Origin: Planctomycetota bacterium
GTDB lineage: Bacteria > Planctomycetota > Phycisphaerae > Phycisphaerales > SM1A02
Length of the DNA: 51,847 nucleotides
Assembly: GCA_017859745.1 (NCBI GenBank)
Contig: JAFMML010000018.1
Span: 1-51,847 of the forward strand
Direction of reading: 5' to 3'
The position numbers and the translations under genes are program-made. Of the stretch, positions 9,948 through 31,168 are shown one piece after another. Under the pieces are notes generated by a model. That model made no database searches, was not told the DNA's origin, and saw only the letters and a program-made list of their open reading frames with translations. How positions within the stretch are numbered: the first letter of the stretch is position 1; each line of letters opens with the position of its first letter.

Positions 9948-10403
9948 TCAGGCGTCGGCGTCCTCGAACAGCTTGAAGAGCGACGCCGCGTCCTCGCACT
10001 CGTACGCGGTGTTGCGGAACGCCGGATCCGCCATGGCGCGGCTGATCCGACCGAGCGCCTGGATGTGTTCGGCGATGCGGTCGTTGGGCGAGGCGAGCAG
10101 AATCACCAGACGCACCGGCTTCTCGTCGATCGCGTCGAAGTCGATCGGTTGGGCCGGCTTGCCGATCGCCGCGACCAGCGAACGAAGGCCCGGACACTTG
10201 CCGTGGGGGATGGCGAGTCCTTCGCCGATGCCCGTCGATCGCTGCATCTCGCGTTCCCACACCACTCGCTTGAGCCCGGCGGGGTCGCCGATGCACTTCC
10301 TCTCGGCGAGCAGATCGACGAGTTCCTCGATCGCCTCGTGCTTGCTGGTCGCCGCAAGCGGGACGCGGATCGTGTCCGGTCGGATGATGTCGAGAAGCTT
10401 CAT
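9948..10403 (-). CDS. PTS IIA (PtsN/fructose-type) domain protein
   Basis: A 151-residue stand-alone EIIA domain of the fructose/mannitol/nitrogen class. The phosphorylatable His is in the GLAIPHGK motif near residue 66. A conserved FDAIDEKPVRLVILLASP strand pair follows near 93, then IAEHIQALGRI near 117. With no EIIB/EIIC in the window it is likely regulatory (PtsN-like). The ATG at 10403 is chosen because MKLLDII is the usual start of the family; the longer upstream frame is low-complexity. A second PTS IIA gene is at 24876-25346. It lies downstream of rsmB on the same strand, 91 bases away. Confidence 0.87.
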   Translation of the reverse strand: MKLLDIIRPDTIRVPLAATSKHEAIEELVDLLAERKCIGDPAGLKRVVWEREMQRSTGIGEGLAIPHGKCPGLRSLVAAIGKPAQPIDFDAIDEKPVRLVILLASPNDRIAEHIQALGRISRAMADPAFRNTAYECEDAASLFKLFEDADA

Positions 10404-10494
10404 GAGCGGTGCGGCGACCGATCGGTGCGAAGGTGGGCGCGAAGCCCCGGATGGTACCACTCGACCGAGGCGAATCGAAGCGGATAGCACGGCC

Positions 10495-11865
10495 TCATCG
10501 GCAGAGGAGTCCGTGGTATCCGCCATCGGCGTAGCCCGCAGGGTCCTCTCCCGGCAGGCCGGCGGGGAATCGAACGCCACTCCGCGGCGCCGCGGCATCG
10601 AGTGCGTGGGCGATCCTCTCGGCCTGGCGCTCGTTCTCCCCGGGTTCGAGACTGCAGGTGGCGTAGAGCACCGTGCCCGAGGGCGACAGCAGTGGAAGTG
10701 CGGCCTGGACGATCTCCCACTGTCGTTCCCGCAGCGAGGCGAGTCGCCGGGCCGTGAAGCGGTAGCGGGCCTCCGGACGCCGCGGCAGCACCGCGGTGTT
10801 GGAGCAGGGCACGTCGAGCAGGATCAGATCGAACGCTCCGGGAAGGCCTGCGAGGTCGGCGTGGGTCGCGGCGCGGATCCGCTCGAAGGGCGAGGCGAAC
10901 GCGGCGAGGTCCCGCATCCTCGACTCGTCCGGTTCGATCGCGACGATTTCGGCCTGCGGATGCAGAGCCGCGAGCTGACGGGTCTTGGTGCCGCGGCCGG
11001 CGCAGAGATCGAGGATCCTCCGCGGGGCGAGCGACGCGGTCGCCTCCACCGGCGCCGCGCTGCCGGGATCCTGCACCCGCAGACTCGTGTCGGCCGCGAG
11101 CGCCTCGGCGAGGCCTCCGGCCCGGTCCCGCCAGACCGCGAATCCCGTCCTCGAGTGCGGCGCGACCCGCTCGCCGAGCGCCGCCAGCGATGCCTCGGGG
11201 CCGGCAATCACGATCGGCGGCGCGACCAGGCCGTGGGCGGCAAGTCGAAGCGTTCGGTCGAAGCCGTGGGCGTTGATCCAGTGGAGCAGGAGCTCGCGGC
11301 CGTGACTCGTCATCGCGCCGAGCCGCTCGACCGGGTCCTCCGGAAGCACCGCCTCGCGGAGCCGCAGTCCGCGCCCGTCCTCGAGGGGGAGGACGTCGCC
11401 GCGACCGAGCCACGCGTCGATGGGGAACGACCCTGCGGGCAGGATCTCCTCGCCCAAGGACGCGACGCGTCGCAGCACCGCGTTGGCGAGTCCGCCCGCT
11501 CCGCGGCGGATGCGACGAGAGGCCCAGGCGACGGCGCTGTCGACGACGGCGTGATCCGGCTCGTTGTCGAACAGAAGCAGTTGCGCCGCGCCGCCGAGCA
11601 GGACCGCCTTCATCCGCGGCTCCAGACTTCTCCAAGACCCGCGATCGAGCGACGCTTCGACCACCGTCGAGAGTGTGAGCCATCGACGCCGGACCTGTCG
11701 CTCGATGGCCCGGGCGAGCGGCGGAGCGCCGTCGGCGGTCCCGGCAAGGCCGAGATCCGGGAATCGGGCGGCGAGTTCGGCGATCCGCTCGAAGGCGAAC
11801 GCCCGGACGTCGGCGGCTTCGCCTTCGTTCCGGGCGTTCGAGGAGCTGACGCCTTGGTCGGTCAC
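10495..11865 (-). CDS. rsmB: RsmB/NOP-family rRNA cytosine-C5 methyltransferase
   Basis: About 456 residues. The N-terminal 150 residues are a NusB-like RNA-binding domain (AFERIAELAARF; HAVVDSAVAWA; LANAVLRRVA). The SAM-dependent domain has motif I LDLCAGRGTKT, motif IV LLDVPCSNTAVL and motif VI YATCSLEPGEN. Both cysteines, the catalytic one and the release one, are present. It should make m5C in 16S rRNA (C967 in E. coli). The GTG at 11865 lies 10 bases after the metK stop; an alternative GTG at 11907 would overlap metK by 32 bases. It is probably cotranscribed with metK, the enzyme that makes its methyl donor. Confidence 0.9.
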   Translation of the reverse strand: MTDQGVSSSNARNEGEAADVRAFAFERIAELAARFPDLGLAGTADGAPPLARAIERQVRRRWLTLSTVVEASLDRGSWRSLEPRMKAVLLGGAAQLLLFDNEPDHAVVDSAVAWASRRIRRGAGGLANAVLRRVASLGEEILPAGSFPIDAWLGRGDVLPLEDGRGLRLREAVLPEDPVERLGAMTSHGRELLLHWINAHGFDRTLRLAAHGLVAPPIVIAGPEASLAALGERVAPHSRTGFAVWRDRAGGLAEALAADTSLRVQDPGSAAPVEATASLAPRRILDLCAGRGTKTRQLAALHPQAEIVAIEPDESRMRDLAAFASPFERIRAATHADLAGLPGAFDLILLDVPCSNTAVLPRRPEARYRFTARRLASLRERQWEIVQAALPLLSPSGTVLYATCSLEPGENERQAERIAHALDAAAPRSGVRFPAGLPGEDPAGYADGGYHGLLCR

Positions 11866-18149: not shown

Positions 18150-18479
18150 CTAGACCGAGTCCGTCGGATCGCCCGCGGACGGATCGACTCCAAGCCTTGC
18201 GGCGTGCCGGATATGGAGCACGTCGACCGTCCGCGAACCGACCTTGAAGATGACACGGTAGGGACCCACGAGCACCTGCCGCAGGTCGATGCCCGGAAAC
18301 AGGTCGGCTTCGCGCGCCCTCGGATGGCGCTTCGGCATCGTGGCAAGCCCGTCGATCTCGTGCTCCAGCGATGCGAGCCACGACAGGGCGACCGCTGGCG
18401 ATGCCTCCTTCGCCAGGAAGCCTGCGATCTCGGAAGTCTCGTCTCTTGCCGCCGGATGGAACCGCACCACATGCCGCAT
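18150..18479 (-). CDS. RelE/ParE-family toxin
   Basis: 109 residues. Shows the RelE/ParE fold pattern: an N-terminal strand (VVRFHPAARDE), two helices (EIAGFLAKE; ALSWLASLEHEIDGL), MPKRHPRA, then the strand set VLVGPYRVIFKV and TVDVLHIRHAAR. The last motif is the family's usual closing one. RelE-type members cleave mRNA on the ribosome, ParE-type members poison gyrase; the sequence does not decide. It lies 4 bases after a Phd/YefM-type antitoxin gene, forming a type II toxin-antitoxin pair. The C-terminal 16 residues beyond the fold are probably a tail. Confidence 0.87.
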   Translation of the reverse strand: MRHVVRFHPAARDETSEIAGFLAKEASPAVALSWLASLEHEIDGLATMPKRHPRAREADLFPGIDLRQVLVGPYRVIFKVGSRTVDVLHIRHAARLGVDPSAGDPTDSV

Positions 18480-18483
18480 GGAG

Positions 18484-18798
18484 TCAGCGAGTCCGTTTCC
18501 GGCGATTCCCTGCGGGCTTCGCGAGGCGTTGCTTCAACTCCGAGAGCACCTCTTTCGCGGGAACCGCGGGCATCCCGGCCTCGAGTTCGGCGAGGCGGGT
18601 TCGGATCACCTGCTCGACCTCGATCGACTCCACGATCTCGAGCATTCGCTGGTAGGCGGCGGCATCCTGCACCACGACCCGCGCGTGTCCGTTGACGGTC
18701 AGCACCTCGGGGCGACCAGACTTGGCGAGACGGGTCAGATGGCTCTTCGGATCCCGCAGGAAGTGCGTGAGCGGGTGAATGTCGGTGAGTCGGACCAT
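18484..18798 (-). CDS. Phd/YefM-family antitoxin
   Basis: 104 residues. The N-terminal DNA-binding part reads VRLTDIHPLTHFLRDPKSH, GRPEVLTVNGHARVVVQD and AAAYQRMLEI, the normal Phd/YefM order. The C-terminal 45 residues (Glu/Lys-rich, ending in a basic stretch) should wrap the toxin. ATG 18798 is preferred over the in-frame start at 18810 because GGAG lies 6 bases before it and the family begins M-x-x-L. Antitoxins of this kind usually autorepress the operon; no operator was identified with confidence. Confidence 0.87.
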   Translation of the reverse strand: MVRLTDIHPLTHFLRDPKSHLTRLAKSGRPEVLTVNGHARVVVQDAAAYQRMLEIVESIEVEQVIRTRLAELEAGMPAVPAKEVLSELKQRLAKPAGNRRKRTR

Positions 18799-18909
18799 GG
18801 ACTGCTCCAAAGCAGAGAATTCGCAGATCGTTCCAGCCTAACTCGCATTCGCCCGCTGGCGGGAGGTTTCTGCCGAAACTCCGAGGAGTGGACGGATGTC
18901 CGTTCGTCG

Positions 18910-19476
18910 TCAGCCGCGTCGGCGGGCCCGCCGACTTCGGAAGAACCCCCGCAGGAGGGCGACGGACTCCTCGGCGAGCACGCCGCCGACCACCTCGACG
19001 CGGTGGTTCAGTCGGGTGTCCTCGGCGATCCGGTAGAGCGTGCCGCACGCACCCGCCTTGGGATCGGTCGCCCCGTAGACGCAACGGTCGAGCCGCGCGT
19101 TGACGAGCGCCCCCGCGCACATCGGGCAGGGCTCGAGGGTCACCGCCATCGAGCACCCGGTCAGGCGCCACGATCCGAGGCGTTCGCCGGCGCGGCGCAG
19201 GGCGACGATCTCGGCGTGGCCGGTGGGATCGCCGGTCGCCTCGCGGTCGTTGGCGGCCTCGGCGACGATCTCGATGCCGTCGCCGGTCCGTCGCCAGACC
19301 ACCGCGGCGATCGGCACCTCGCCGACGGCGGCGGCGCCGGCCGCCAGCCGCAGGGCCCGCCGCATCATTCGGAGGTCGATCTCGGTCAGGGTGTCGGTCG
19401 ACGCCAGGGCGGCGAGGTCTGCGCGACGCGAAGCGATGCGGCGCCGCGCAAGCGTGCGACTTCGAGCGACGTTCAT
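18910..19476 (-). CDS. tadA: tRNA-specific adenosine deaminase TadA-like
   Basis: 188 residues, cytidine/deoxycytidylate deaminase fold. The zinc site is His87-Ala-Glu89 and PCPMC (Cys117, Cys120). The family elements GEVPIAAVV, DPTGHAEIVALRRA and AGALVNARLDRCVYG are present. It should convert A34 to inosine in tRNA-Arg. The start overlaps the tatC stop (ATGA at 19473-19476). Compared with the usual TadA it carries about 35 extra, Arg-rich N-terminal residues; an internal Met near residue 37 is the alternative start. The C-terminus ends in RSRRARRRG. Confidence 0.87.
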   Translation of the reverse strand: MNVARSRTLARRRIASRRADLAALASTDTLTEIDLRMMRRALRLAAGAAAVGEVPIAAVVWRRTGDGIEIVAEAANDREATGDPTGHAEIVALRRAGERLGSWRLTGCSMAVTLEPCPMCAGALVNARLDRCVYGATDPKAGACGTLYRIAEDTRLNHRVEVVGGVLAEESVALLRGFFRSRRARRRG

Positions 19477-20954
19477 CGTGGCGGACCGCCGGAGGCGCCG
19501 CCGGGATTGCGAGGCCCGTCGTCGTCGGGAGCGACGTCGTACGGCGACCCGTCATCGTCGTCGCGGTCGTGCCCGCTCGTGCCCGCAGGAGGACTGTCGC
19601 CGACGACTTCATCGGCGTCGCCGTCGGGCTCTCTGGGTGGAGGCGGACCGTCGTCGTCGTTGCCGGTCTGGTCGTCGTCGCCTTCCTCGTTGTCTCCCTC
19701 GTCGTCTTCCTCGTCGTCTTCCCGATCGAATGGATCGACGCCACGGGCCACCGCACCCGGCGGCGGGGGTGCCGCCGCCGAAGGCGCCTCGTCGCGACCG
19801 CCGCGACGCCACTTGCGGACGCGATCGAAGGTGTCGTGCACGATCGAGCCGCGGGCGAGGCGCTCGGGCGGCAGGGCGACGAGCAGCAGGATGCCGAGTT
19901 CGTACAGGCCGTACAGCGGGCCGAGCAGCAGGAACATCGAGATGAAGTCCGGCGGCGTCAGCACCGCGGCGACGACGGCGCAGGCGAGCACCGCGTACTT
20001 GCGATTCCTCCGCAGCACCTCGACGTTCACGATGCCCACCCATCCCAGCAGCAGGATCACCAGCGGAAGCTGGAATGCGATCGAGATCGCAAGCGCCAGC
20101 AGAAGCACGAAGTTGACGTACTCGCGCAGGCGGAAGACCGGCAGCAGACTGCGATCGCGGGCGAGCGTCGCCGAGCGGATCTCGACCTCGTCCTCGCCGA
20201 CGGGCATGACCACGCGGAGCTGCGCGGTCTTCGCATCGATCCACGCATCGCCCGGCCGAAGGGATGCGGGCGGCTCGTCGAGGATCGGCAGACTGGCCGG
20301 TGGTGCGGAGGCGGCGATCGCCCGGTCGGGGGGCGGGACGTCGGCTTCGGCCGTCGCTTCCGCCTCGGGAAGGCGCTTGCCCGGCGGAGCGGCGAGGCTC
20401 GGATCGACTTCAGGTGCCGTGGCGGCGTCCGGCGCCGCGCCGATCGGGAAGGTCTCGGTCGGTCCAGGCTGCCCGAAGCCGACCAGAAACAGCAGCATCA
20501 GCGGCAGCATCACCCAGTAGAGCACCGAGAGTCCCAGCGCCACCAGCACGCCGCTCGCCGGCATCAGGAAGTGCGCGAAGCGGCGTTCGTTCGCGTAGAG
20601 GCCCGGCTCGACGAACTTCCACAACTGATAGACCAGCCACGGTGCGCTCAGGACCAGCGACAGGATCACCGCCAGGAAGAGGTCGGTGGTGAGGGTCTCG
20701 ACCGGACTCAGGGCCTGCACCTGCGTCGGCAGGCGGCGGGCCTCGAGCGCCGCGTAGAGCGGAGCGGTCATGATCTCGCGAATCGAGTCCGCGAGGACGA
20801 ACGCCAGCACCGCCAGGGGAAGCGGGACGATCAGCGCGAAGATCAGGCGGCGGCGCAGCTCCTCGAGGTGCTCGCCGAAGGTCATGACGGCGCCGGCTTC
20901 GACCTCGTCGTCGCGCCTGTCGCCGTACCGATCCTGTGAAGGTCGCTTGGCCAT
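19473..20954 (-). CDS. tatC: Sec-independent (Tat) translocase subunit TatC, enlarged
   Basis: 493 residues, about twice the usual TatC. The N-terminal signature is present (MTFGEHLEELRRRL near 24; PLYAAL; FVEPGLYANER near 115), as are six membrane helices. Two additions stand out. One is a roughly 110-residue Ala/Pro/Glu-rich insert at 161-272, in the periplasmic loop between helices 3 and 4. The other is a C-terminal cytoplasmic tail from about 390 dominated by Asp, Glu, Gly and Pro. TatC recognises twin-arginine signals; likely substrates here are the phosphoesterase at 1069 and ActB. tatD lies 27 bases upstream and tadA overlaps the stop. No tatA/tatB is in the window. Confidence 0.92.
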   Translation of the reverse strand: MAKRPSQDRYGDRRDDEVEAGAVMTFGEHLEELRRRLIFALIVPLPLAVLAFVLADSIREIMTAPLYAALEARRLPTQVQALSPVETLTTDLFLAVILSLVLSAPWLVYQLWKFVEPGLYANERRFAHFLMPASGVLVALGLSVLYWVMLPLMLLFLVGFGQPGPTETFPIGAAPDAATAPEVDPSLAAPPGKRLPEAEATAEADVPPPDRAIAASAPPASLPILDEPPASLRPGDAWIDAKTAQLRVVMPVGEDEVEIRSATLARDRSLLPVFRLREYVNFVLLLALAISIAFQLPLVILLLGWVGIVNVEVLRRNRKYAVLACAVVAAVLTPPDFISMFLLLGPLYGLYELGILLLVALPPERLARGSIVHDTFDRVRKWRRGGRDEAPSAAAPPPPGAVARGVDPFDREDDEEDDEGDNEEGDDDQTGNDDDGPPPPREPDGDADEVVGDSPPAGTSGHDRDDDDGSPYDVAPDDDGPRNPGGASGGPPR

Positions 20955-20981
20955 CTGGAATCCGCTGACGATAGCGGGTGG

Positions 20982-21773
20982 TCAGGCGTGTCCGTCGGAG
21001 GGAAGACCGAAGAACCGCTCGGCGTTCGCGTCGAGGCGGGCCTCGAGTTCCGGTGGCGTCAGGCCATGGATCTCCGCGAGACGCTCCGCGACCGCGACGA
21101 CGTACCGCGGCTCGTTCGGCCGAACCTTGCGATGCGGTTCCGGTGAGAGGTAGGGGCTGTCGGTCTCGACCATGACCCGTTCGATGGGCACCAGGCGAGC
21201 GCTCTCGGCGACCTCGGGAGCGTTGGCGAAGGTGAGCACGCCGGTGAAGGAGATCCACGCCCCGAAGTCGAGGACCCGCTGGGCGTCCTCGGGTCCCTCG
21301 GTGAAGCAGTGGAAGACGAACCGCTCCGGCGGCAGTCCCGAAGCGTCGAGGATCGGAAGCAGTTCCGCAACCGCCTTGCGGCTGTGGACGACGACGGACT
21401 TGCCGAGGCCTTCGGCGGTCCACGCGACGATGTGCTCGAGTTGCGCGTCGAGGACCCGACGCTGGGTGTCGGGATCGGGACGGGTGTAGTGTCGGTCGAG
21501 GCCGAGTTCGCCCCATGCGACGCAGCGTGGACTCGTGCCGACTCGACGCAGATCATCCCAGTCGATCGCCTCGTCGCTGTGCAGGGGGTGGACGCCCGCC
21601 GAGCAGAAGACCCGGGGGTCGGCCTCGGCGAGCGCCAGCGCCGCCTTCGCGTCCCCGCTGCCGACGGCGATCGAGATCATCCGGGAGACGCCCGCGGCCG
21701 CCGCCGCATCGACGACCTCGGTCTCGCGTCCCCGAAAGACCTTCGAGGTGAGATGGCAGTGGGTGTCGATCAC
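20982..21773 (-). CDS. tatD: TatD-family metal-dependent hydrolase/DNase
   Basis: 263 residues, TIM-barrel amidohydrolase-like. Metal ligands are seen as DTHCHL at residues 3-8, Glu in WGELGLDRHY near 89, VVHSRKA near 128, FHCFTEG near 153 and ETDSPYL near 203. Members act as 3'-5' exonucleases on DNA and are cytoplasmic. It starts with GTG, and the start overlaps the upstream antiporter stop (GTGA), so it is translationally coupled in the long minus-strand operon. The linkage of tatD to tatC recalls the E. coli tatABCD order although TatD is not needed for export. Confidence 0.93.
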   Translation of the reverse strand: MIDTHCHLTSKVFRGRETEVVDAAAAAGVSRMISIAVGSGDAKAALALAEADPRVFCSAGVHPLHSDEAIDWDDLRRVGTSPRCVAWGELGLDRHYTRPDPDTQRRVLDAQLEHIVAWTAEGLGKSVVVHSRKAVAELLPILDASGLPPERFVFHCFTEGPEDAQRVLDFGAWISFTGVLTFANAPEVAESARLVPIERVMVETDSPYLSPEPHRKVRPNEPRYVVAVAERLAEIHGLTPPELEARLDANAERFFGLPSDGHA

Positions 21774-23209
21774 GTCGCCACCTCGCGACCGGAGTCCGTC
21801 GAACCGGCGGACTCCGATGCGGGCTCGCGTTCCACGGCGTCGACTTCGCCCGCCTTGGCGAGTCCGAATCGCATCAGCAGGGGTCCGACGAGTTCGTGGA
21901 TCGTGATCACCGCCAGCAGCAGCGTGGCGAGTTCACCCGCCCATGCCGCGTCGGGAAGGTTGCGCCGCACCTCGCCCACGAGGGCGATGGAGAGGCCCGC
22001 CTGCGAGATGAAGCACGCCCACAGCCAGCGGCGGACCGGGGGATCGAAGCCGACGAGACGGGTGCCGATGCCGGCGGCGCCGGTGATCAGCGCCGCTCGA
22101 CATCCGACGATCACGAGCACCGCCGGCCAGAGGCTCGGGAGATCGCCGAGGTGGACGCCGGCGCCGGCGACGGCGAAGAAGACGCAGCAGACCGGAAGCA
22201 GCAGACGTTCGGCGCTGCGCTCGAGATCCGCGTTGTGTCCGGCGAGGTTCGCCTGGGCGATGCCTGCCGACAGGCCCACCAGCAGCGGCGCGACGTGGAG
22301 GAACTCGCCGATCACGGCGATCCCGAACGCGGCCAGCAGGACGAGGGCGTCGAGCTGCTCCGGCACCGCACGAGAGATCCAGAGGATCATTCCACCGATC
22401 ACCCCGCCCACCAGCACCGATCCCAACAGATGCCAGGCGAGTCCGCCGGCGAGCGGCAGCAGGTCGCCGCCGCCCTCTCCGCCACCGAATCGAACCACGG
22501 CGAACATCAACACCGTGAAGGTCGTGATCAGCACGAGGTCGACCATGATCGCGCTGGTCAAGCTGATGCGACTCACCGGTCCGCGGGCTCGGGCGTCCTT
22601 GATGACCGCGATCAGGACCGCCGGCGAAATCGCCATGGCGATGGTGCCGACGATGAGGGCGGGAACGATGCCGGGACCTTCGCCGTCCTCGCCGGCAAGG
22701 CCGGGCACCATGGGCAGGATGACCAGCGATGTGACGAGCGCCATGCCCGAGAAGACCACCACCGCGTGAAGGCCCACGACGCCGGCGACCTTGGCGGCGA
22801 TCGCCCGCAGTTCCCCAAGCCGGATCTCTCCCCCGGCCACGAAGGCGATGACCGCGATGGCAAGGCCATCGACGAGCTTCACGTAGGCCAACTGTTCGCT
22901 GCCCAGGATGTCGGGGAACCAGTCCGGCCGCCATGTCGCGGCGTCGGGTCCGACCAGCACGCCGAACAGCAGGTAGCCGCAGATTCGCGGGAGACGCACG
23001 ACCGAGAGCAGTTCGCCGAAGATCCACGCGCCGAGGACGAGGACTCCGAGACCCAGCACCAGATCCCGCAGGCCTCGCGGCGGCGACGTGATCGTCTCGC
23101 CGAGCACGCCGAGTTCGCCGGTTCGCACCGGTACCGACAGGATGCCGGCGGCGGCGGCGAGGCCGAGCAGTCCGGCGAGAACGAGCAGCAGCAGAAGGTT
23201 GCGGCTCAA
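21770..23209 (-). CDS. Cation:proton antiporter (CPA superfamily)
   Basis: 479 residues with about 12 hydrophobic segments in the CPA pattern: LPRICGYLLFGVLVGPD near 70, LAIAVIAFVAGGEI near 120, and an Asp-bearing helix IMVDLVLI near 215. Further on are FLHVAPLLVGLSAGIAQANL and FFAVAGAGVHL. There is no C-terminal TrkA-N/C domain. It begins with a TTG (23209) that overlaps the stop of the preceding antiporter-like gene (TTGA). The likely role is sodium or potassium/proton exchange across the inner membrane. It is third or fourth in the operon behind PTS IIA and PII-like genes, which suggests regulated ion transport. Confidence 0.82.
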   Translation of the reverse strand: MSRNLLLLLVLAGLLGLAAAAGILSVPVRTGELGVLGETITSPPRGLRDLVLGLGVLVLGAWIFGELLSVVRLPRICGYLLFGVLVGPDAATWRPDWFPDILGSEQLAYVKLVDGLAIAVIAFVAGGEIRLGELRAIAAKVAGVVGLHAVVVFSGMALVTSLVILPMVPGLAGEDGEGPGIVPALIVGTIAMAISPAVLIAVIKDARARGPVSRISLTSAIMVDLVLITTFTVLMFAVVRFGGGEGGGDLLPLAGGLAWHLLGSVLVGGVIGGMILWISRAVPEQLDALVLLAAFGIAVIGEFLHVAPLLVGLSAGIAQANLAGHNADLERSAERLLLPVCCVFFAVAGAGVHLGDLPSLWPAVLVIVGCRAALITGAAGIGTRLVGFDPPVRRWLWACFISQAGLSIALVGEVRRNLPDAAWAGELATLLLAVITIHELVGPLLMRFGLAKAGEVDAVEREPASESAGSTDSGREVAT

Positions 23210-24537
23210 GAGGTCGCCTCATTGAGATCGGACTTCGAGTCGGAGGTGGGGGCCGTCGACGATCGCTGCTGCCACGACTGCAGCGGCGCGGCCAGTCCCG
23301 ATGCGAGTCCGGCGATCACCACTGCGGTCAGCAGGGTGCGGGCGAGGGTCGAATCCTCGACCAGGACGAGGGCGATGGCGACGGCGACGGCAAGCGGTGC
23401 CTGGCGAACGCTGGCCAGCCGCAACGGCGTGTTCGTGGGGAGCTCCTCTCGAGCGAGGCGCATCGATTGACCAAGGGTGAACGGCTTCAACAGGATCCGC
23501 GTCGCGGCGATCGCGAAGCCCAACGCCAGCGGCGCCCAGCCCGAGTCGACGGAGACGAGCACACCCGCGAAGCCGTACAGCAGCATGCCTCCAGCGGTCT
23601 CGCCGCGGTGCAGCACCGACTCGAGGTTCCGCAGCGGACCCGTCGAGAGGTTCGCAAGCACGACGCCTGCGAGAAGTCCCGACAGCAGCGGGGAGATGCC
23701 CGCGGCGTCGGCCACTCCGGCCACGATGCAGACGAACCCGACGACCACGACGAGCATCTGCGGCGAGTCTCGCTCGACCATCGAAAGCAGGAACCTCGCG
23801 CCGATTCCGACGACCGCCGCGGTCGCCAGGAGCACGGCGAGGCGTCGTCCGCCCAGCAGCGGATCGAGCGTCGAGGCGATGCCGTCGGCGCGGACGGGAA
23901 GCGACGCGAGGCCGGCGAGGGCGATGGCGACGATCGCGGAGAGACCCGCCGCGGCGGCGATGAGGGTCGCGATGCGACGGGTGCGGTCGGAGAGCTCGAC
24001 GCGAAGCGAACGGGTCTCCGGCGCCCACGAGAGGTTGGCCGCCGCAAGCGTCGCGAGCGGGGCGAACAGCGCCGCCGGATGGGCGAAGGCGTTCTCGACG
24101 GCCAGGCCCAGGACGATCGCTCCCAGCGAGGCGGCGACGAGCGCGGACATGGCAGCGTCCTTCACCGTCCAGGTCCAGATCACCCCTGGCACCGCCTGCA
24201 GGATCTTCCATCTCGCCTGCAGGCCGACGATCAGGCCGACCCAGCCCAGCGCGACCACGACCAGCGGTCGCAGTCCCGAGAAGATGCCTTCGTCGACGAG
24301 GTCGAGACCCACCGGTCCGAGCGCGATGCCTGCGAGCACCGCGAACCACCCGCCGGCGGAGAGCGCCGCCACGGCGCGGTTGCGATGCAGACGACGCGAG
24401 AACGGTGTGCCCGCGGCGATGGCCAGTCCGCCCAGAGCGAGAACCGCGAGAAAGATCCGGAAGCCGATGGGGACGCCGTCGCCGCCTCCGGCGGCGGTCG
24501 GAACTCCATCGGCCGCAATCAGGAGAGCGGCGATCAT
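23206..24537 (-). CDS. Second, diverged cation:proton antiporter-like membrane protein
   Basis: 443 residues with about 12 hydrophobic segments. It is weakly like the CPA antiporter at 21770: GGWFAVLAGIALGPVGLDLV near 83, then near 285-305 GISPLLSGLLAGVVLANL, then RILLKPFTLGQSMRL and an ending rich in Ala/Leu. The usual ion-binding Asp helix is not clear, so it may be a partner subunit or a diverged copy. The two genes may form a heterodimeric transporter, since their translation is coupled. It starts 4 bases after the PII-like gene stop. Confidence 0.7.
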   Translation of the reverse strand: MIAALLIAADGVPTAAGGGDGVPIGFRIFLAVLALGGLAIAAGTPFSRRLHRNRAVAALSAGGWFAVLAGIALGPVGLDLVDEGIFSGLRPLVVVALGWVGLIVGLQARWKILQAVPGVIWTWTVKDAAMSALVAASLGAIVLGLAVENAFAHPAALFAPLATLAAANLSWAPETRSLRVELSDRTRRIATLIAAAAGLSAIVAIALAGLASLPVRADGIASTLDPLLGGRRLAVLLATAAVVGIGARFLLSMVERDSPQMLVVVVGFVCIVAGVADAAGISPLLSGLLAGVVLANLSTGPLRNLESVLHRGETAGGMLLYGFAGVLVSVDSGWAPLALGFAIAATRILLKPFTLGQSMRLAREELPTNTPLRLASVRQAPLAVAVAIALVLVEDSTLARTLLTAVVIAGLASGLAAPLQSWQQRSSTAPTSDSKSDLNEATS

Positions 24538-24541
24538 CGGT

Positions 24542-24883
24542 TCACGACTCGTCCGGCAGCCCGAGGGTCGACTCCACCGGAAGCACCGCGCCGATCGGAC
24601 GCTGTCCCGGCTTCATCTCCTCGATGAACGCTCGCACCGCCTCGATCCGATCGCGGGTGGTGACCGAGATGAGGATTCGGCTTCCGGTCTCCCGCGGCAG
24701 CAACGCGGCGAGTCCGGCGAACATCGGCATCTCCTCCCGGATGATCGCCCCCAGGCCCTTCGAGTCGACGACGGTCGCGCCGGTGATGCCGACATCGAGC
24801 AGACCGGTCGCGAGTGGATCGAAGGACTCCTCGTTCCGCGCGATCAGGATCAGGAGGCAACGACTCGAGGGCGCTTCAGCCAT
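24542..24883 (-). CDS. PII-like (GlnB-fold) signalling protein
   Basis: 113 residues. The pattern is that of the PII-like superfamily: a first strand CLLILIARNE, a helix, the strand ITGATVVDSKGLGAIIREEM, then a loop where the T-loop would be, and a strand RILISVTTRDRIEAVRAFIEE. It lacks the uridylylated Tyr and canonical T-loop sequence of GlnB/GlnK. PII-like proteins bind nucleotides or bicarbonate and commonly regulate a neighbouring transporter. Here that would be one or both antiporter-like proteins downstream. ATG 24883 overlaps the PTS IIA stop by 8 bases. Confidence 0.68.
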   Translation of the reverse strand: MAEAPSSRCLLILIARNEESFDPLATGLLDVGITGATVVDSKGLGAIIREEMPMFAGLAALLPRETGSRILISVTTRDRIEAVRAFIEEMKPGQRPIGAVLPVESTLGLPDES

Positions 24884-25346
24884 GGGAGGCGTCCTCGGCC
24901 TTGAGTCGTTCGAAGAGCTCCGCGGCATCTCCGGCTCCGGCGAGGCGGCCCACCGCGCCCTTGCCGGCCACGATCCGGGCGAGTCTGGCGAGCATCCGCA
25001 CATGCTGCCAGGGACTGTCGGGGTTCCCGAAGATCGCAAGGACCAGATGCACGGCGCTGCCGTCGGGGCCGAAGGCGATGCCGGAAGGGGCCACGACCGC
25101 CGCCACGAGGGGTTCTGGAATGCCAGGGAGGACCGCATGGGGCAGGGCGATGCCGATGTCGGCGATCTGTTCGAGCACCGTCGAGCACTGCGATTCTCGT
25201 TCGGCGAGACCCTCGGAGACCGCTTCCGCCGCCACGTCGCTGATCGAGGCGACCCGCTCGCCCAGCGTGGCGAACAGCGCCTTCCGATCGATCGACTCGG
25301 TGAGGACGATCGCCAGTTCCGGACGGAGATAGGAGGAGATCAGCAT
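24876..25346 (-). CDS. PTS IIA (PtsN-type) regulatory protein
   Basis: 156 residues, EIIA fructose/nitrogen class. The phosphorylatable His is in GIALPHAVLPG near residue 68. The strand IAFGPDGSAVHLVLAIFG follows near 93, and WQHVRMLARLARI near 113, the usual helix after it. It is the first gene of the seven-gene minus-strand operon and is diverged from the other IIA (9948). In proteobacteria PtsN controls potassium transport according to its phosphorylation; position in front of antiporter genes suggests a similar role here. No EIIB/EIIC is near. Confidence 0.85.
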   Translation of the reverse strand: MLISSYLRPELAIVLTESIDRKALFATLGERVASISDVAAEAVSEGLAERESQCSTVLEQIADIGIALPHAVLPGIPEPLVAAVVAPSGIAFGPDGSAVHLVLAIFGNPDSPWQHVRMLARLARIVAGKGAVGRLAGAGDAAELFERLKAEDASHG

Positions 25347-25582: not shown

Positions 25583-25684
25583 AGAGTCCATCTGGTTCCG
25601 CCGTTGCCCTCGAAAGGCGACGGGCGGCTCGCTCCACCGACCGCCGTGCCCCCACGGCGGTCTCGTTGCCTCACCGCTCTCATC

Positions 25685-26325
25685 ATGAGTCGATTCCTCT
25701 TCCCGAAGTGGTCGAATCTGCTGCTGCCCGGCTTGATCGCGGCGGGAGCGGTCATGCCGCTCTACGCCGTGTTCTTCGTCGCATACGGGTTCAGCCCGAA
25801 GACGCTCGACGCGGGCTACCAGCCGGTGCAACCAGTGCCGTTCAGCCATGCCCTTCACGCCGGGCAGCTCGGCATGGATTGTCGGTACTGCCACAACACC
25901 GTCGAGGACGCTTCGCACGCGGCGGTCCCGCCGACGCAGACCTGCATGAACTGCCACACGCAGATTCGGCCGGAGAGTCCCAAGCTCGTCGAGGTGCAGG
26001 AGAGCTACCGAACCGGCAAGCCGATCGAGTGGATCCGCATCCACAAGCTCGGCGACTACTCCTACTTCAACCACGCGGCGCATGTGAACCGCGGCGTCGG
26101 TTGCGTCAGCTGTCACGGCCGCATCGACCAGATGGAGGTCGTCTACCAGTCGCAGCCGCTCTCCATGGGCTGGTGCCTCGACTGCCACCGCAATCCCGAG
26201 CCGCACCTTCGCCCGGTGTCCGAGGTCACGAACATGGCCTATCAGCCGGAGTTCGAGCTGACCGACACCGAGCGCGAGGGCCTGCTGGCCAAGTACGACA
26301 TCCATCCCTCGGAGAACTGCTCGAC

Positions 26326-26338
<13 letters not shown>
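25685..26338 (+). CDS. actA: Alternative complex III subunit ActA, pentaheme cytochrome c
   Basis: 217 residues. One N-terminal membrane anchor (LLLPGLIAAGAVMPLYAVFFVA) is followed by five CxxCH heme c sites: CRYCH near 65, CMNCH near 87, CVSCH near 140, CLDCH near 165 and CSTCH near 213. Several extra His residues (PFSHALHAG; YFNHAAHV) can serve as distal ligands. ActA passes electrons from the complex toward the oxidase on the periplasmic side. The ATG at 25685 is chosen because the anchor follows directly. The gene overlaps actB by 13 bases. Confidence 0.95.

Positions 26339-31168
<4,830 letters not shown>

Follow-up and report, generated by a model that had tools for sequence, protein, structure and literature searches.

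Four adjacent genes of a Planctomycetota bacterium, coding for a PTS IIA protein (IIA), a PII-like protein and two antiporter-fold membrane proteins (AP1 and AP2), are one conserved unit. On balance, we think that they probably specify one regulated antiporter pair, with AP2 as the transporting subunit and AP1 as its rewired partner, gated by the PTS and by a PII ligand. The genes are located within a stretch of 51,847 nucleotides, referred to as a whole as the window (Table 1). Evaluation of the open reading frames at 18910-25346 confirmed the initial annotation, which had described seven minus-strand genes joined by short overlaps or gaps: IIA and the PII-like gene overlap by 8 bases, a gap of 4 bases separates the latter from AP1, 4-base overlaps connect AP1 with AP2, AP2 with tatD and tatC with tadA, and tatD and tatC are 27 bases apart. 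The PII-like start was set at the ATG at 24883, the open frame as listed being longer. In both AP1 and AP2, PF00999 is the sole Pfam domain.

Table 1. Genes of the locus, with positions in the window and the matches supporting each assignment
Feature	Position	Strand	Evidence
IIA, PTS EIIA type-2 (PtsN/fructose-like), 156 aa	24876..25346	-	PF00359 58.5 bits, phospho-acceptor His in LPHA
PII-like protein (predicted fold), 113 aa	24542..24883	-	weak PF00543, 15.3 bits (cut-off 25)
AP1, predicted antiporter-fold membrane protein without TM5 aspartate	23206..24537	-	PF00999 27.9 bits (cut-off 26.2)
AP2, CPA2-like cation/proton antiporter, TTG start	21770..23209	-	PF00999 67.5 bits; TM5 Asp224, TM10 Arg371
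tatD-type nuclease gene, GTG start	20982..21773	-	PF01026 224.4 bits
tatC, two Pfam-matched stretches, acidic tail	19473..20954	-	PF00902 183.8 bits
tadA-like deaminase	18910..19476	-	PF14437 108.9 bits, PF00383 82.2 bits

Of 50 loci inspected within the order of the window, 47 have IIA, PII-like, AP1 and AP2 arranged in this sequence and on the same strand, the remaining three being interrupted by contig ends (two) or fragmentary (one). This linkage rules out a chance neighborhood, and the expectation that the four genes would be neighbors in related genomes was borne out. The 8-base overlap of IIA and the PII-like gene is common to 22 of 23 loci, with starts picked by homology. Across 61 genomes including the one under study, AP1 has a strong match in 22, and in 21 of these the PII-like gene adjoins it. 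A search of genome contigs with AP2, confined to close relatives, revealed four loci, each carrying the block. More distant genomes of the phylum retain the block, show IIA fused to the PII-like domain, or are rearranged; in four genomes of one family (f17), a single open frame of 269-289 aa upstream of AP1 comprises IIA and the PII-like domain. Counting against a gated pair, the IIA halves of the fusions match weakly (a single one of the four exceeds the PF00359 cut-off), two loci (L095, L096) are devoid of a recognised IIA, and two others (L092, L093) contain AP1 with no adjoining AP2. Among 72,556 plasmid records, the PII-like protein found no match, the L093 fusion was matched in two through its IIA half only, and AP2 in three with 27-29% identity.

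The phospho-acceptor histidine of IIA, for which an intact LPHA site had been noted and is indeed present, is kept in all 23 aligned loci, as PHA in 21 and as PHV in L028 and L029. The genome itself encodes HPr (92.7 bits, C58) and the N-domain of enzyme I (104.9 bits, C79); over the 61 genomes, the one under study included, enzyme I is present in all and HPr in 59. Based on the Pfam match, the intact histidine and the presence of both phosphorelay partners, IIA belongs to PTS EIIA type 2, and it scores 33.3 bits against the PtsN equivalog NCBIfam TIGR01419, below the cut-off of 138.7.

For the product of the gene at 24542, a PII or PII-like fold is predicted by AlphaFold2 modeling (pLDDT 82.9) in combination with structure comparison by VIA and Foldseek, in agreement with its initial assignment. 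The best VIA match is CPII 5ds7 (Z 10.0, rmsd 2.3 over 76), and SbtB 6mmo follows with Z 9.3 (rmsd 2.6 over 78). The titles of the first 18 matches, with Z 8.8-10.0, all name PII or PII-like proteins, though EF-G/EF-2 domains come close at Z 8.6-8.7. In Foldseek, the best PII is 4usi (E 2.8e-4), and CutA1 appears among the top matches. A profile search of the PDB ranked neurolysin first (E 0.025), above P-II 2eg1 (E 0.084); the fold is therefore not settled by sequence alone. Relatives L048, L089 and L100 exceed the Pfam P-II cut-off of 25 (26.7, 28.3 and 33.0), while the window protein, L030 (15.1) and L087 (18.5) stay under it and L088 has no match. Canonical PII proteins (GlnB/GlnK) are recognized by Tyr51 in the T-loop, a TGxxGDGK B-loop and a C-terminal Arg. 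Upon alignment with E. coli GlnK, the counterparts of Thr29 and Gly35 are kept in 37 and 34 of 38 sequences, the B-loop motif is absent and Arg101 stands opposite Gly108, placing the protein outside canonical GlnB/GlnK. The missing B-loop and C-terminal residues count against adenylate binding. At the place of the T-loop, a conserved hydrophobic segment, PxFAGLAxLL, is found. The predicted fold is shared with the CPII, SbtB and PstA/DarA families, but the group differs from these by its own PxFAG segment and by lacking the canonical B-loop.

The initial description of two coupled antiporters stood in part: both proteins have an antiporter fold, predicted in the case of AP1, but AP1 is devoid of the TM5 ion-binding aspartate, and therefore only AP2 looks canonical. 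For AP1, the fold is suggested by its model, of modest confidence (pLDDT 66.5), with VIA matches to SOS1 (Z 27.0), MjNhaP1 (26.4), NapA (24.4), PaNhaP (24.3) and KefC (20.9) at rmsd 4.8-5.6, and by hhalign comparison with AP2 (probability 98.4). Its profile found no match in the PDB at E up to 1, and three scanned AP1 proteins of family f17 gave no match to the Pfam exchanger model. AP1 forms a single clade (support 100/99). The TM5 column, motif position 7, holds Asp in 59 of 59 distinct AP2 rows and in 0 of 59 AP1 rows, where A, S, G, N, V or T is found instead; in three AP1 rows outside the order (L086-L088) an Asp lies one column off and is possibly the same residue, and six f17 rows have Asn in a weak alignment. 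Asp224 of AP2 aligns with the Asp of the NHE6 ND motif and with KefC Asp156, and Arg occupies the KefC K307 column (motif position 8) in 34 of 34 AP2 sequences; the KefC Lys269 column had been considered for this position and was dropped in favour of Lys307. By the published CPA motif rule, AP2 is CPA2-like. AP1 is probably a non-canonical partner subunit.

More distant antiporters of the same class, bearing CBS domains, resemble the block in forming tandem pairs (6 of 12 loci) and in having IIA directly upstream (3 of 12), this low second number counting against a gated pair. Unlike AP1-AP2, they keep an Asp-Asp (18 of 18 aligned) and carry a CBS pair of their own (7 of 7 scanned). No PII-like frame was found in these 12 stretches. 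Locus L094, arranged as IIA-AP-PIIL-AP-PIIL, contains antiporters which group beside the CBS type (SH-aLRT 93), neither of them with a CBS match. The PII-like protein may therefore replace a fused CBS sensor.

For the regulated pair that we favor, we infer how the proteins associate, which ligand and ion are involved and in which direction control runs, as follows. AP2 would be the exchanging subunit of a monovalent cation/proton antiporter, probably electroneutral in view of the missing acidic residue at motif position 6. AP1 would be an ancient AP2 paralogue that lost its ion-binding aspartate, most likely forming a pair with AP2 in which it would serve for regulation or as a scaffold and provide a docking surface. 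The PII-like protein probably senses adenylates and would block or release AP1-AP2, as SbtB does on SbtA, its hydrophobic T-loop segment contacting the membrane subunits. Phosphorylation of IIA via enzyme I and HPr would constitute a second input, comparable to the action of unphosphorylated PtsN on the K+/H+ antiporter YcgO. Such gating by phosphate and a metabolite is suggested by precedent, gene fusion and domain replacement. Counting against PII gating of an antiporter, PII proteins are trimers and antiporters are dimers. The stricter version, in which the PII-like protein and the PTS phosphodomain jointly gate a heteromeric antiporter with AP1 as a former exchanger turned non-transporting docking subunit, is offered tentatively.

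Alternatively, the four genes could be co-inherited for ion and energy homeostasis, with IIA and the PII-like protein acting on other targets without antiporter contact. In genome G033, the arrangement AP1-AP2-tatD is accompanied by no IIA or PII-like frame within 14 kb, and the two regulators are therefore not obligatory; moreover, of 15 PII-like matches outside the order, four (L089-L091, L098) lie away from antiporters in their genomes. L098 (genome G097, 48 bits), a 108-aa intergenic frame with a PIFAG segment and no Pfam family assigned, was counted as a true relative; L050 (genome G008, 25.5 bits) was rejected as chance, being opposite a longer asparagine synthase-like frame and not recovered by the profile. 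The tight linkage in the order, the IIA-PII-like fusion upstream of AP1 and the ion transporters adjoining the other 11 of the 15 matches speak against separate targets, which we consider unlikely. A functional partnership of tatD, tatC and tadA with the block is highly improbable: tatD comes after it in 19 of the 21 window-family loci that have enough room, but in 0 of 25 in other families of the order, and tadA adjoins tatC in 29 of 30 family loci with the block present or absent, yet AP2 is upstream in just 9 of 30. These genes are a separate cluster, seen beside the block in the window's family only, and the early doubt over a functional membership of the export and tRNA genes was justified.

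Another reading regards AP1 as active, with an ion site rewired around Glu313 in TM10 and Glu174 in TM4, resulting in two exchangers or a heterodimer with two unlike sites. Since Glu at 313, Arg at 347 and Lys/Arg at 351 are uniform in 34 of 34 AP1 sequences, AP1 may still transport, and E174 is invariant in a 21-row AP1 alignment; however, E174 is absent from the AP1 rows outside the order, and 94% of 6537 antiporters carry Asp at motif position 7 according to PMC6181914, where AP1 has lost it. We judge a rewired site to be rather unlikely.

Among known systems, the favored pair resembles PtsN-YcgO of Escherichia coli, in which, as reported in PMC11808508, an EIIA-type protein controls a cation/proton antiporter (CvrA) of the CPA superfamily. 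YcgO is described there as a single antiporter with putative RCK and CorC cytoplasmic domains, unlike the two antiporter-fold proteins without further Pfam domain plus a PII-like protein found here, and ptsN and cvrA are far apart in the E. coli genome, whereas IIA lies inside the operon. In SbtB-SbtA and GlnK-AmtB, a PII-like or PII protein binds a transporter, these transporters being trimers (PMC10710835). The glnK gene adjoins amtB, and SbtB is among the closest folds to our PII-like model; in contrast to both, the PII-like protein would here act on a CPA antiporter, a type that is normally dimeric, with a PTS IIA linked or fused. The CPA2 K+/H+ antiporter KefFC shares the CPA2 fold, with KefC D156 and K307 aligning with the TM5 Asp and TM10 basic residue of AP2. 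Its ancillary subunit is annotated as quinone oxidoreductase, and the stretch read beside the Kef genes contains no PII, IIA or antiporter-fold partner. Among the papers listed in literature searches, none describes an operon of IIA, PII-like protein and antiporters in its title or in the opening of its abstract; a mention deeper in a paper is possible.

If true, a single operon would bring the PTS phosphorelay together with a PII-type signal of metabolite state on one ion exchanger, and PII control would be extended from trimeric transporters to the dimeric antiporter superfamily, breaking an apparent limit. AP1 would then represent a natural experiment in which an antiporter paralogue lost its ion site and turned regulator. 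Together with the CBS relatives, this would amount to a fused sensor domain being swapped for a separate PII-like protein. Through the fusion of IIA to PII and the replacement of CBS by PII, this wiring is open to direct testing.

The overlaps and short gaps that the initial annotation had read between the seven genes of the minus-strand run are borne out by the gene coordinates. Pfam matches support the IIA protein, the two antiporter-fold membrane proteins AP1 and AP2, TatD, TatC and the TadA-type deaminase, and the product of the second gene, a PII-like protein of 113 aa, reached 15.3 bits to Pfam P-II versus a cut-off of 25. The genome itself is a 3.24-Mb draft of 147 contigs (97% complete).

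Coordinates of features in the window and in loci of related genomes
Feature	Location	Position	Strand	Remarks
Seven-gene run	window	18910-25346	-	IIA, PII-like, AP1, AP2 (the block), tatD, tatC, tadA
PII-like gene	window	24542-24883	-	
AP1	window	23206-24537	-	
AP2	window	21770-23209	-	
tatC	window	19473-20954	-	493 aa (331-462 aa in relatives); Pfam match split in two stretches, hydrophilic insert between them and long Asp/Glu-rich tail (by eye)
Two short genes below tadA	window	18150-18810	-	resemble ParE/RelE-type toxin and Phd/RelB-type antitoxin (by eye)
Genes divergent from block	window	25604-29688	+	by eye, similar to alternative complex III genes (multihaem cytochrome and iron-sulphur subunits)
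Another EIIA type-2 gene	window	9948-10598	-	PF00359 105.1 bits, stronger than block IIA
Third EIIA type-2 protein	contig C58, same genome			near HPr
Block with tat cluster	L028, CAMBOV010000010.1			
Third AP2-type antiporter gene	L046	11736-13178		adjoins block; TM5 Lys-Asp kept in both AP2 copies
Third AP2-type antiporter gene	L049	4123-5487		adjoins block; TM5 Lys-Asp kept in both AP2 copies
PII-like gene apart from antiporters	L089	1611-2042		same family as L090, L091; secretin- or secretion-ATPase-like genes follow (by eye)
PII-like gene apart from antiporters	L090	2195-2785		secretin- or secretion-ATPase-like genes follow (by eye)
PII-like gene apart from antiporters	L091	1849-2274		
PII-like gene	L098	7746-8072		near heterodisulphide-reductase-type redox subunit genes (by eye)
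Regulator and transporter row	L100	6725-10694		

Of 61 genomes searched for the PII-like protein, 22 gave a match, the own one among them, and IIA, PII-like, AP1 and AP2 genes followed in this order on a single strand in 20 of the 21 others; the match in genome G008 was judged to be due to chance. The corresponding profile had hits in 25 of 392 genomes across the phylum and in 48 of 251 across the order, the own genome counted. The block was found in 25 of 28 further loci of the order, the remaining three being broken by contig ends (L146, L156) or fragmentary (L173). Together with the window and L085 this amounts to 47 of 50 loci (48 of the 50 recounted), L147 and L155 being counted once with L028 and L029, which they repeat with identical TM5 sequences; in L047, 739 bases separate the PII-like gene and AP1. 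Thus, judged by its PII-like gene (48 of 251 genomes), the block occurs in a minority of the order, yet it is nearly always whole. The AP1 profile matched 24 of the 61 genomes, 22 of them strongly, with G033 as the sole strong match lacking a PII-like match; its gene order is AP1-AP2-tatD, with no IIA or PII-like frame within the 14 kb inspected. Counts of spread hold for the own phylum, coverage beyond it consisting of an insensitive AP2 scan and plasmid records.

In the window's family, 21 loci leave room for tatD after the block and 19 of them have it there (three further loci lie at a contig end), against none of 25 loci from the order's other families (fragmentary L173 excluded, some stretches being short). 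TatC was matched in 54 of the family's 61 genomes. Among the 30 loci obtained, tadA adjoins tatC in 29, tatD lies at most about 1.5 kb away in 22 (once on the opposite strand) and AP2 is present nearby in nine; tatD, tatC and tadA are a cluster of their own.

The AlphaFold2 model of the PII-like protein, built from five sequences, has a mean pLDDT of 82.9, and the top 18 rows of its VIA search were all titled PII or PII-like. It compared best with CPII 5ds7 (Z 10.0, rmsd 2.3 over 76), Anabaena 3dfe (Z 9.6, rmsd 2.8 over 80) and SbtB 6mmo (Z 9.3, rmsd 2.6 over 78), followed by PstA and GlnK (Z about 8.9); the likewise ferredoxin-like EF-G/EF-2 domains reached Z 8.6-8.7, leaving a modest margin for the PII assignment. 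Aligned with E. coli GlnK, 38 relatives show the counterparts of GlnK Thr29 (Thr37, 37/38) and Gly35 (Gly43, 34/38); a PxFAG segment with Gly57 in all 38 occupies the T-loop, and neither the canonical B-loop nor the C-terminal Arg is present. We assign the protein to the PII-like kind.

AP1 and AP2 are homologous over their whole length (hhalign 98.4, E 7.4e-15). The AP2 profile matches solved antiporters (NHE6, E 2.6e-9; NapA, 8e-5), which the AP1 profile did not reach; the AP1 model (pLDDT 66.5) superimposes on SOS1, MjNhaP1, NapA, PaNhaP and KefC with Z 20.9-27.0 and rmsd 4.8-5.6. When AP1 and AP2 were aligned jointly with KefC and CvrA, all 34 AP2 rows showed Asp in the TM5 column of KefC Asp156, and none of the 34 from AP1 did (A 15, S 11, N 6, G 2); the six Asn rows belong to f17, a family outside the order where the alignment is weak, and the f17 AP1 proteins scanned (L095, L092, L099) matched no exchanger model. 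From later loci, 27 AP2 rows reach the column, all with Asp (five partial rows miss it), and none of 27 AP1 rows has one, in total 59/59 and 0/59 after removal of two repeated contigs from each. The AP1 rows of L086-L088, outside the order, show an Asp one column off, perhaps an ancestral state. According to the cited sections of PMC6181914, position 7, the TM5 Asp, is conserved in 94% of 6537 antiporters and position 8 is Arg or Lys in 95%, and electroneutrality is to be expected of CPA2 members whose position 6 is not acidic. At that position AP2 carries Lys in 23 of 34 rows, and at position 8 it has Arg in all 34. In a maximum-likelihood tree AP1 forms a single clade (support 100/99).

Outside the order, 15 genomes of the phylum had a PII-like match, and all loci were inspected. 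L087 and L088 hold the full block, and in L086 the contig ends inside AP1. In four loci (L092, L093, L097, L099), a single frame of 269-289 aa spans IIA and the PII-like domain, with AP1 next in line; the IIA halves score 18.0-30.1 bits, one of four above the cut-off of 27, and the P-II halves 13.5-15.4 bits. L095 and L096 carry PII-like, AP1 and AP2 genes with no IIA recognised, and L094 runs IIA, antiporter, PII-like, antiporter, PII-like. In L100, IIA and a DUF2225 protein stand in a row with a P-II protein (33 bits) and a CitMHS/ArsB-type transporter, and here the IIA and P-II regulators in common with the block may serve a different transporter fold.

The AP1 profile further matched 66 of 298 genomes of the class, own counted, 17 at block-like scores (at least 283 bits) and 49 more distantly. 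In the 12 of these 49 distant loci sampled, the antiporters measure 559-582 aa where complete, score higher with AP2 than with AP1 and hold Asp at both position 6 and position 7 (18/18 aligned); all seven scanned carry a C-terminal CBS pair. They stand in tandem in six loci and directly downstream of IIA in three (L174, L177, L182); among those without upstream IIA, the stretches of L181 and L185 are cut upstream. Adenine nucleotides are frequent ligands of CBS domains. The two L094 antiporters, whose genes are interleaved with PII-like genes, gave no CBS match and group beside the CBS type (quick tree, SH-aLRT 93); consequently, the exchanger-fused sensor of one line seems to have been replaced in another by a separate PII-like protein.

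HPr is encoded in 59 and enzyme I in all 61 genomes. The window's genome has both, so that its IIA can in principle be phosphorylated; being nearly everywhere, they do not mark out block-bearing genomes. In the cited parts of the respective sources, unphosphorylated PtsN binds and inhibits the K+/H+ antiporter YcgO (PMC11808508), and SbtB locks SbtA, PII use being apparently confined to trimeric transporters (PMC10710835). Taken together, the two precedents lead us to lean slightly toward an antiporter pair controlled by the PII-like protein and by whether IIA is phosphorylated. Its chief weak point is the symmetry mismatch between a PII trimer and an antiporter dimer, along with possible transport by AP1 itself, which keeps the position 8 Arg and an invariant TM10 Glu, E313, through which it could yet transport. 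Regulators that make no contact with the antiporters and act elsewhere appear unlikely to us. In favour of that reading, a PII-like gene lies distant from antiporters in L089-L091 and L098, the last (48 bits, PIFAG retained) a true relative with no antiporter within the 12 kb inspected; against it, an ion transporter adjoins the PII-like gene in 11 of the 15 genomes outside the order.

The individual parts are already known, and PTS-Ntr genes occur in Planctomycetales (PMC13104625, whose cited sections do not name an IIA/PII-like/antiporter operon). The combination of IIA, PII-like protein and antiporter was not found in the open-licence literature searched, judged mostly at title and abstract level, and is apparently undescribed there; likewise not found were the IIA-PII fusion, an antiporter-fold partner without TM5 Asp and the sensor swap. 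What the data show is the linkage, the predicted folds, the residue pattern and the fusion; for the gated pair, we infer a complex with a putative ligand and ion and a presumed direction of control: AP2 would do the exchanging with AP1 as its rewired partner, the PII-like protein would keep the pair shut or let go, and the phosphorylation state of IIA would likewise shut or release it.
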